Shown one piece after another: positions 24,945-26,801 of a stretch of DNA of 26,801 nucleotides. The stretch covers positions 1 through 26,801 of the IMG/VR virus record IMGVR_UViG_3300001460_000115, one strand, 5' to 3'. The stretch comes from a virus. Every line of letters begins with the position of its first letter. The first letter of the stretch is position 1. The position numbers were made by a program, and so were the translations under genes. The notes under the pieces were generated by a model. It saw only the letters and a list, made by a program, of their open reading frames with translations, ran no database searches and was not told where the DNA came from.

Positions 24945-24994
24945 TGTGGCCATATACTGAAGACGAAAACGACTACTTGTCTAAAAAAGTATAA
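24944..24994 (+). CDS. Sixteen-residue ORF, coupled micropeptide candidate
   Basis: The ORF reads MWPYTEDENDYLSKKV. Its ATG overlaps the preceding stop (TAATG), and AAAGAG lies upstream, so translation by coupling is plausible. The W-P-Y-T-x-(D/E)-E...YL pattern seems familiar from tiny unnamed proteins of marine T4-like phages, but I am not certain. The stop codon lies inside the late promoter octamer that follows. Confidence 0.45.
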   Translation: MWPYTEDENDYLSKKV

Positions 24995-24997
24995 ATA
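24990..24997 (+). promoter_or_regulatory. T4-type late promoter for the lysis/accessory genes
   Basis: An exact TATAAATA. With the normal spacing the start falls near 25003, inside the left arm of the terminator hairpin at 24999-25018. Late transcripts would contain only about four bases of that arm and so lack the terminator. Confidence 0.8.
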
Positions 24998-25038: not shown

Positions 25039-25155
25039 ATGGAAAAATACTGTAATAACTGTAAATGTGTTTGTCATTGCGATAATCAAGAATGTCTTAA
25101 CTGCGTTAATGAAATATGTACTAATTGTGATTGTGAGGAAACAAATGAATATTGA
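25039..25155 (+). CDS. Cysteine-rich 38-residue protein
   Basis: Ten of 38 residues are cysteine (5, 8, 10, 12, 14, 19, 22, 27, 30, 32), with His13 among them. The order is CNNCKCVCHC, then CLNC, then CTNCDC. Such density suggests a metal-binding knuckle or metallothionein-like protein, or a disulfide knot if exported; no signal peptide is present. AGGAG (25029-25033) sits five bases before the ATG, the optimal place, so translation is likely. It is the first gene after the late promoter and overlaps the lysozyme start by 11 bases. No family recognised. Confidence 0.7.
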   Translation: MEKYCNNCKCVCHCDNQECLNCVNEICTNCDCEETNEY

Positions 25156-25609
25156 TACATTAAGAGAAGAATTAAAAATCGATGAAGGAGTCAAATACGA
25201 AATATATTTGGATCACCTAGGCTTACCTACTTTTGGTATTGGCCATCTCGTTCTCGATAGCGATGTAGAGCACGGAGAAGATGTTGGAACACCTGTATCA
25301 GAAGATAGAGTCAATGAGTGTTTCGAAAAAGACGTAGAAATTGTGTTATCAGAATGCACACATCTATATTCTGACTTTATTGGTCTGCCTGAAGAAGTTC
25401 AGCTGATTATTGCAAATATGATGTTTAATATGGGTAGACCGAGATTATCTCAATTCAAAGGTATGAAGCGCGGAGTAGATGCTCAAGATTGGGATGCAGC
25501 TGCAGACGAAATGGTAGACTCACGTTGGTACAAACAAGTAACAAATCGCGCAGATCGCTTAGTAGAAAGAATGAGAGCAGTAACAATTTCTCAAATACCG
25601 TATGGCTAA
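25145..25609 (+). CDS. e: T4-type lysozyme (endolysin, GH24)
   Basis: The 154-residue product (T4 lysozyme: 164) hydrolyses the peptidoglycan glycan backbone for lysis. The catalytic triad of T4 lysozyme, E11/D20/T26, corresponds to E14 (KIDEG), D23 (YLD) and T29 (LPTFGIGH). The C-terminal helices include NMMFNMG and the SRWY motif. I chose ATG 25145, giving MNIDTLREEL like the T4 start, over upstream in-frame codons that run through the Cys-rich gene. GAGGAA precedes it. No signal peptide is present, so a holin elsewhere is expected. The stop overlaps the next ATG. Confidence 0.94.
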   Translation: MNIDTLREELKIDEGVKYEIYLDHLGLPTFGIGHLVLDSDVEHGEDVGTPVSEDRVNECFEKDVEIVLSECTHLYSDFIGLPEEVQLIIANMMFNMGRPRLSQFKGMKRGVDAQDWDAAADEMVDSRWYKQVTNRADRLVERMRAVTISQIPYG

Positions 25610-26214
25610 TGAAAAATTTTAAAACACATTTAGAAGAAGCTGCAGGAAAAGGATTAACGATCTTTGACATAGACGAAACTATGTTTATAACTAAAGCTAA
25701 AGTACATGTGGTAAAAAACGGTAAAGTTGTTAAGAGACTTGATAACCAAGAATTTAATACTTATAAGAAAAAACCTGGTGAAGAATACGATTTTGGAGAA
25801 TTCAAAAATGCTGAAGTCTTTCAAAAGACATCCACACCAATTGCAAGAATGATTAACAAAGTTAGAGCAATACTTAAGAATGCTACAAAGGCAGGATCTA
25901 AAGTTATTATTGTAACTGCAAGACCTAACTTTGACAATAAGAAAACATTTTTAGACACATTTAGAAATCAAAGAATTGACATAGATAGAATCTATGTTGA
26001 ACGCGCTGGAAACCTTGGAGGTGGACCAGCAGCTGATAATAAGAAAGTTATCTTTAAGAAGTACTTAGATCAGAAGATATATAAACGTATAAGACTCTTT
26101 GATGATGCTATGTCGAATTTAAAGATGTTCTTATCATTACAAAAAGACTACCCGGATGTTTCTTTTGAAGCATTCCTAGCAAAACCAAACGGCTCTGTTT
26201 CTAGAGTACGATAA
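25609..26214 (+). CDS. HAD-family hydrolase with probable capsid-targeting leader
   Basis: The 201-residue product has HAD motif I FDIDET (D20, D22, T24), motif II T103 (IIVTAR), a Lys candidate for motif III near K145/K146, and motif IV D165-D166 (LFDDA). All phosphatase residues are present; the substrate is unknown. The first 15 residues, MKNFKTHLEEAAGKG, resemble the leader of T4 internal proteins (MKTYQEFIAEA...) and contain L-E-E followed by A, a consensus gp21 cleavage site. So it may be packaged in the head and injected. The start at 25609 overlaps the lysozyme stop (TAATG). Related HAD proteins exist in marine T4-like phages without a known job. Confidence 0.85.
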   Translation: MKNFKTHLEEAAGKGLTIFDIDETMFITKAKVHVVKNGKVVKRLDNQEFNTYKKKPGEEYDFGEFKNAEVFQKTSTPIARMINKVRAILKNATKAGSKVIIVTARPNFDNKKTFLDTFRNQRIDIDRIYVERAGNLGGGPAADNKKVIFKKYLDQKIYKRIRLFDDAMSNLKMFLSLQKDYPDVSFEAFLAKPNGSVSRVR

Positions 26215-26226
26215 CAGGAGATTATA

Positions 26227-26801
26227 ATGAATATGAAGACAATCGCGGCAGTGGCGACACTGGCATTTTTGTTTTGTTTTTCGGCATTTGCTGATAAAAT
26301 AAAAGTAGGTTTTATCTATATTGGCCCAACAGGCGATCATGGATGGACTTATAGACACGATATTGGAAGACAAGATATCGAAAAACATTTTGGCGATAAA
26401 GTTGAAACAACTTTTATAGAAAGTGTGAAATACGGACCTGATGCTGAAAGAGCAATCAGAGCTATGGCAAAAGAAGGTATGGATATTATATTTGCTACTT
26501 CATTTGGTTACATGGAACCAATGTTGAAAGTTGCTAAAGAATTTCCAAATATTAAGTTTGAGCATGCTACTGGTTATAAGACTAATGATAATATGTCAGT
26601 TTATTCTGGTATGTTTTATCAAGGCAGATACATTCAAGGCGTAATCGCTGGCCATATGAGTAAAAATGGTAAAGCAGGTTACATTGCTTCTTTTCCAATA
26701 CCTGAAGTTGTAAGAGGTATTAATGCTTTTTACTTAGGCGCTAAAAGTGTAAACCCTGACTTTGATATTGATGTAGTGTGGGTTAATAGCTGGTACGATC
26801 C
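26227..26801 (+). CDS. BMP-family periplasmic substrate-binding protein, 3' end cut by window
   Basis: The frame stays open from the ATG at 26227 to the window end, giving 191 residues. Residues 1-22 form a type I signal peptide (Lys4, hydrophobic core, AFA before D23). Then comes VGFIYIGPTGDHGWTYRHD (residues 27-45), the start typical of proteobacterial BMP/PnrA-like ABC-transporter binding proteins. Later stretches also match: FATSFGYMEP, FPNIKFEHATGY, YIASFPIPEVVRGINAF and VVWVNSWYD. Family members bind purine nucleosides or related compounds. AGGAG (26216-26220) sits six bases before the start, 12 bases after the HAD gene. The signal-peptide codons (GCG, GTG, CTG) are richer in G/C than the rest. 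No transporter subunits are in the window. Confidence 0.93.
   Translation, partial: MNMKTIAAVATLAFLFCFSAFADKIKVGFIYIGPTGDHGWTYRHDIGRQDIEKHFGDKVETTFIESVKYGPDAERAIRAMAKEGMDIIFATSFGYMEPMLKVAKEFPNIKFEHATGYKTNDNMSVYSGMFYQGRYIQGVIAGHMSKNGKAGYIASFPIPEVVRGINAFYLGAKSVNPDFDIDVVWVNSWYD

Follow-up and report, generated by a model that had tools for sequence, protein, structure and literature searches.

The PstS proteins of T4-like cyanophages are phage-borne substrate-binding proteins that come without a permease and are expected to load an ABC importer of the host. Where two reviews (PMC6359870, PMC5083919) treat transport, they name pstS and ammonium transporters among the phage genes for nutrient uptake and describe a rise of PstS expression in phosphorus-limited hosts, but do not mention BMP-family solute-binding proteins (PF02608). 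Within the BMP family, AtzT (6PI5) binds guanine and 2-hydroxyatrazine and is encoded together with a whole transporter; its affinity for guanine is about 20-fold higher than for adenine, and guanine is contacted by Tyr45, Ser97, Phe98, Glu165, Trp194, Asn218 and Asn220 (PMC6834077). Adenine was modelled in the unpublished structure 3S99, a 'basic membrane lipoprotein' of Brucella melitensis (PMC6834077). PnrA/TmpC and BmpD are lipoproteins of the same Pfam family with nucleoside ligands.

Here, we analysed a BMP-family gene in a window of 26,801 bases, which corresponds to bases 1-26801 of a virus record of 30,692 bases. On balance, we consider it probable that this gene encodes a secreted, soluble periplasmic protein binding a purine base, most likely adenine, and that it is cargo of a T4-like marine phage, feeding an importer of the host during infection. 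No close relative was found among named phages; INPHARED yielded only unannotated gut contigs with at most 37% identity, and a search of PHROGs returned no family for the protein. A literature search, conducted mostly outside subscription papers, found no phage BMP gene named as such, and a pelagimyophage survey and a viral-enrichment study contain no mention of BMP; these absences carry little weight.

Results and discussion

A complete and conserved phage gene

The open reading frame starts with ATG at position 26227 on the plus strand, remains open to the window end (26227-26801) and is completed at record position 27246, giving a protein of 339 amino acids; the whole gene is contained in L002:2228-3247. 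None of the 339 codons is a stop, and two codons just past the window end hold an N. The protein matches PF02608 with 189 bits (cut-off 24.1) over profile positions 2-294 of 301 and contains the motifs GPTGDHGWTYRHD and FPIPEVVRGINAF, most residues of which are invariant among 34 phage homologues. Its first 22 codons (26227-26292, plus strand) encode a predicted signal peptide, MNMKTIAAVATLAFLFCFSAFA followed by D, with clear n, h and c regions by inspection, a probable AxA-type cleavage between AFA and D, and no lipobox. The model of the orthologue in contig L005 has low pLDDT at residues 1-20. From the signal peptide and the missing lipobox, the product is probably a soluble periplasmic protein. 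The original prediction of a secreted BMP-family binding protein with hallmark N-terminal motifs is thus supported, and the 12-base spacing and the good Shine-Dalgarno sequence (AGGAG, 26216-26220, plus strand) it described are present.

Upstream on the same strand lies a HAD-like phosphatase gene (25609-26214, stop codon 26212-26214), which is itself preceded in the same gene run by a phage lysozyme gene (25145-25609; PF00959, 41.5 bits). Location and spacing of the HAD gene are as predicted, but its assignment is weak (PF03767 with 21.9 bits, below the cut-off of 27; phrog_415, polynucleotide kinase, E 1e-7). The late promoter assumed upstream of the run does exist as a T4-late-promoter-like box, TATAAATA, at 24990-24997 (plus strand); however, this is the only match in 6.7 kb, compared to a chance mean of 1.2, and thus not above chance. 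Sigma-70-like sites likewise occurred at chance frequency. A short cysteine-rich open reading frame (MEKYCNNCKCVCHCDNQECLNC...) is located at 25039-25155, between the box and the lysozyme gene.

Given a metagenomic record and a gene cut by the window end, a chimeric assembly or a decaying passenger from a host was a legitimate concern, and both had been named as outcomes that would overturn the prediction. Extension past the window speaks against them: the gene is intact and overlaps by four bases (ATGA) with a gene for an A-type Fe-S carrier (TIGR00049, 74 bits, threshold 58.8), which is followed by the T4-type DNA polymerase gp43 (PHROG 262, 1012 bits) and a MazG-like gene. Phage genes therefore flank BMP on both sides, and no bacterial gene follows it in the rest of the record. 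A scan of IMG/VR yielded 93 relatives, and 80 loci were retained; the HAD gene is immediately 5' of BMP in 37 loci, and the order HAD-BMP-Fe-S-gp43 recurs in independent contigs of different metagenomes. Using conserved motifs, a second scan detected 428 stretches that encode a relative, not all of which necessarily belong to T4-like phages. Every uncut copy among the loci examined has an intact reading frame. Codon comparison gave dN/dS values of 0.05-0.15 for pairs of distinct alleles and of 0.26 for one near-identical pair with few changes. Judged by these sequence comparisons, the gene is genuinely phage-borne, complete, conserved and under strong purifying selection, and we regard chimerism or decay as barely conceivable.

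Binding pocket and predicted ligand

Among solved proteins, 3S99 comes closest by sequence with 443 bits, followed by AtzT with 334 bits; PnrA/TmpC score at most 27 bits. For the L005 orthologue, which is 93% identical to the window protein, AlphaFold2 returned a model with a pLDDT of 91.4 and the two-lobe fold of cluster B-I periplasmic-binding proteins. Foldseek aligned this predicted structure to 3S99 with E 6.5e-43, a TM-score of 0.90-0.93, an rmsd of 1.3 and 58% identity. The contacts known from AtzT were transferred to the window protein through the printed alignment (offset 5), which yielded W40, S92, F93, E160, W189, H213 and D215 as pocket residues. None of the seven mapped positions varies among the 34 phage and 24 bacterial rows; seven of seven agree with 3S99 and four of seven with AtzT. 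The phage protein shares fold, pocket and, by prediction, periplasmic location with 3S99, but is encoded by a phage gene outside a transporter operon, and most phage copies are shorter by about 15 residues near the C-terminus. AtzT, at 49% identity, belongs to the same branch and shares the pocket Ser, Phe, Glu and Trp, whereas its Tyr is replaced by Trp and its two Asn by His and Asp in the phage protein; unlike the phage gene, it comes with its transporter. PnrA/TmpC and BmpD have the overall fold in common with the phage protein, but only 16-18% identity. The NCBIfam model NF047927 (putative B6 ABC transporter binding protein) scored 66.8 bits, under its threshold of 400.

By sequence and mapped pocket, the window protein is thus assigned to the 3S99/AtzT purine-base branch and not to the nucleoside branch of PnrA, and its 3S99-type purine pocket is intact at the sequence level. 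Since the nearest structures are 3S99 and AtzT and the invariant pocket is the same as in 3S99, the ligand is likely a purine base rather than a nucleoside, with adenine as first guess; guanine is possible by analogy, as AtzT prefers it so clearly over adenine. The phage cassettes with adenine phosphoribosyltransferase (see below) agree with a purine base.

Genomic contexts and companion genes

The record nearest to the window phage by gp43 among those showing the BMP site (L219; 98% protein and 95% DNA identity) lacks the BMP gene and nothing else. Its HAD gene, 97% identical at the DNA level to that of the window, is joined directly to the Fe-S gene through an ATGA overlap of the HAD stop with the Fe-S start, like that of the BMP stop in the window, and the Shine-Dalgarno sequence AGGAG is missing along with BMP. 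Because a near-identical phage is without this gene alone, we consider BMP to be clean cargo. Its carriage is patchy, as only 2 of 15 searched records of the gp43 family hold it.

The original prediction had called a position next to lysozyme odd for a nutrient gene. This is true for the window, but the position is not fixed: BMP occurs in at least six genomic contexts, in several of them with a leader of its own (see below). Some contigs have it between the Fe-S gene and gp43 (L070, L074-L078). In others, it separates the gene of the major capsid protein from that of the tail tube (L043, L060-L062; in L058 and L059, only the capsid flank is visible). Further copies come after ThyX (e.g. L031, L039, L044, L048) or after RNR/primase genes (L046, L050-L052), and in L041 PstS is a neighbour of BMP, two genes upstream. 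On the 3' side, PstS follows in L051 and L052 and a Na+/Pi cotransporter (60 bits) in L046. The uptake genes beside BMP appear exchangeable (L041:5933-7897, L050:3184-4152, L046:8982-9461, L052:9073-10020) and comprise PstS, the Na+/Pi cotransporter and a membrane protein with weak, below-cut-off similarity to PHO4 (E 0.064). Two contigs (L022, L030) have a two-gene insert in this same variable slot, between BMP and the Fe-S gene, one of the two genes being a PAP2 phosphatase (L030, 40 bits).

In several phages (L033-L036, L065-L067, L210, L213, L215-L217), a 2OG-Fe(II) oxygenase gene and then a phosphoribosyltransferase gene come after BMP in one operon. For L033, the phosphoribosyltransferase scored 177 bits on an adenine phosphoribosyltransferase model (cut-off 125), and the remaining phage copies are 51-100% identical to it; from most BMP phages searched, a phosphoribosyltransferase is missing. 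Bacterial BMP genes are part of ABC operons, with the order ABC ATPase-permease-permease-BMP-adenosine deaminase and XdhC nearby in L083, and permease-permease-BMP-phosphoribosyltransferase in SAR11.

Proposed function and alternatives

Why should a phage carry a binding protein without the corresponding transporter? No permease of the BMP type (BPD_transp_2, PF02653) was found in 12 BMP phage records, two of them of about 145 kb, although the same search was positive in 12 of 14 control genomes. Since the phage carries no permease, we propose delivery to a BMP-type ABC permease of the host, so that the earlier suggestion of the host's own permease as partner now appears probable. Following this argumentation, the Sec system of the infected cell would export the protein to the periplasm, where it would bind adenine or another purine base and pass it on to the host permease. 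Imported adenine would be converted to AMP by the host's adenine phosphoribosyltransferase, or by that of the phage where relatives carry one, and AMP would feed the ATP and dATP supply for phage replication. We infer uptake of a purine base via the host permease as the simplest reading; a host without a BMP-type permease would gain nothing from the phage protein. By analogy, we propose phage BMP as the purine counterpart of phage PstS: it belongs to another protein family and has another predicted ligand, and thereby adds a new family and ligand class to the class that PstS represents.

Three other readings deserve consideration. The transport role could be as proposed with a purine nucleoside (adenosine, inosine or guanosine) as true ligand, as in PnrA and BmpD and close to the nucleoside uptake initially suggested. 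The family as a whole binds nucleosides (adenosine in 6SHU, inosine in 2FQW, guanosine in 7X0R), and an adenosine deaminase gene follows BMP in the bacterial operon of L083. Yet both the bit scores and the pocket place the protein in the purine-base branch, and the phage partner enzyme, adenine phosphoribosyltransferase, takes the base; we therefore regard a nucleoside ligand as unlikely. Imported purines might also serve as nitrogen or carbon source for the host instead of nucleotide salvage. XdhC among the bacterial neighbours, a hydantoinase-like reading frame (judged from its sequence) near the SAR116 copy and the adjoining 2OG oxygenase, which could act on a purine derivative, would fit such catabolism, but the genes beside phage BMP (adenine phosphoribosyltransferase, ThyX or RNR) all concern nucleotide supply and no purine-degrading gene was seen beside a phage copy, making this option quite unlikely.

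A third alternative dispenses with import and assumes a late role in the envelope, e.g. exclusion of other phages, chemosensing or timing of lysis. It would account for the window gene being placed behind lysozyme and a late-type box, and for the lineage with BMP between major capsid and tail tube genes, even though BMP there has its own terminator and leader. A ligand pocket invariant at seven of seven positions, PstS and the Na+/Pi cotransporter as neighbours and the widely varying contexts argue against it, and we consider an envelope role very unlikely. Uptake of a purine base for phage replication thus remains our preferred reading. Its weakest point is timing: the placement of the window gene fits an early nutrient supply poorly, although late or constant expression would be compatible with continued DNA synthesis.

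If a purine scavenger is indeed widespread among phages, these viruses would steer the import of preformed DNA building blocks and not only of elements. The case lends itself to testing: a single gene is involved, the fold of its product is known and the ligand predicted, L219 offers a near-isogenic phage that lacks it, and related copies have a conserved leader RNA.

A leader RNA in front of free-standing copies

Free-standing BMP genes are often preceded by a leader of the form GGCRG-AGTATCTCCTTACGATC-CYGCC...ACMCCCTCGAAAGGA-ATG; the window phage does not have it, as only the 12 bases after HAD precede BMP. An exact scan of IMG/VR for this leader gave 28 stretches, from which 21 distinct leaders were read out, 18 in front of BMP and three as chance matches elsewhere. 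A covariance model, likewise with 21 distinct sequences, matched exclusively in front of BMP among the loci searched. Three stem pairs were changed on both sides, compared to 0.9 in shuffled and 0-1 in slid controls, and the conserved covarying hairpin is present at L211:2740-2798 and in 26 further matches. All matches to Rfam were far below the gathering scores. The leader was not found in 53 SAR11-family genomes and the other bacterial genomes tested, a search run without a positive control for bacteria. A pseudoknot between loop and Shine-Dalgarno sequence was rejected, as one of its five pairs never forms and the others do not covary. The leader is possibly a new cis-regulatory RNA and may act as a riboswitch or protein operator. 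Tentatively, and with less confidence than in the uptake function itself, we suggest that marine phages maintain a self-contained, mobile purine-uptake cassette: the gene of an adenine-binding protein with a phage-specific leader RNA, whose hairpin and conserved downstream stretch overlap the ribosome-binding site and could, as a new riboswitch or protein-binding leader, adjust uptake to the available purines. In some phages, the cassette would also include adenine phosphoribosyltransferase or phosphate uptake genes. Phages of the capsid-linked lineage have a terminator-like hairpin between gp23 and BMP, together with a TATATATA or similar box, so BMP may form its own transcription unit there.

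Lineages, probable gene exchange and possible host

When phage and bacterial BMPs are placed in one tree, the phages keep together only in part. In the full-length tree, phage and bacterium have to switch four times; one of its rows, L086, was misread (branch length 10) and omitted from the trees of protein halves. The tree of the C-terminal part unites 31 of the 34 phage representatives in a single clade on a long stem (SH-aLRT 100), and a C-terminal deletion of about 15 residues is common to its members. Of the remaining three, L033 and L064 are placed beside a second SAR116 BMP and L082 beside SAR11, which by these trees makes at least three phage BMP lineages. The window allele itself reads as a mosaic of N- and C-terminal parts: compared to L033, residues 1-120 are 90-97% identical and later blocks only 30-77%, whereas against L005 identity is 77-90% over the first 90 residues and 87-100% in later blocks.

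Five of 58 SAR116-family genomes (L325-L329) possess, beside an ordinary BMP, a second, phage-like BMP, accompanied by the 2OG oxygenase also found in phages L033-L036, and the N-terminal part of this second BMP falls inside the phage group. The shared gene pair suggests gene exchange between these phages and SAR116. BMP is common in the SAR116 family, with 43 of 58 genomes, and rare in the SAR11 family to which L159 belongs, with 2 of 53. By capsid, the nearest named phages are C48C1 (65%, Kyanoviridae) and Pelagibacter phage HTVC008M (59%), and five related BMP phages carry alphaproteobacterial or permuted tmRNA genes near BMP. Our guess is an alphaproteobacterial host, perhaps SAR116. The tmRNA genes are located near or right behind BMP, at L071:9028-9221, L063:7084-7327, L053:8999-9388, L041:9412-9759 and L037:9964-10378.
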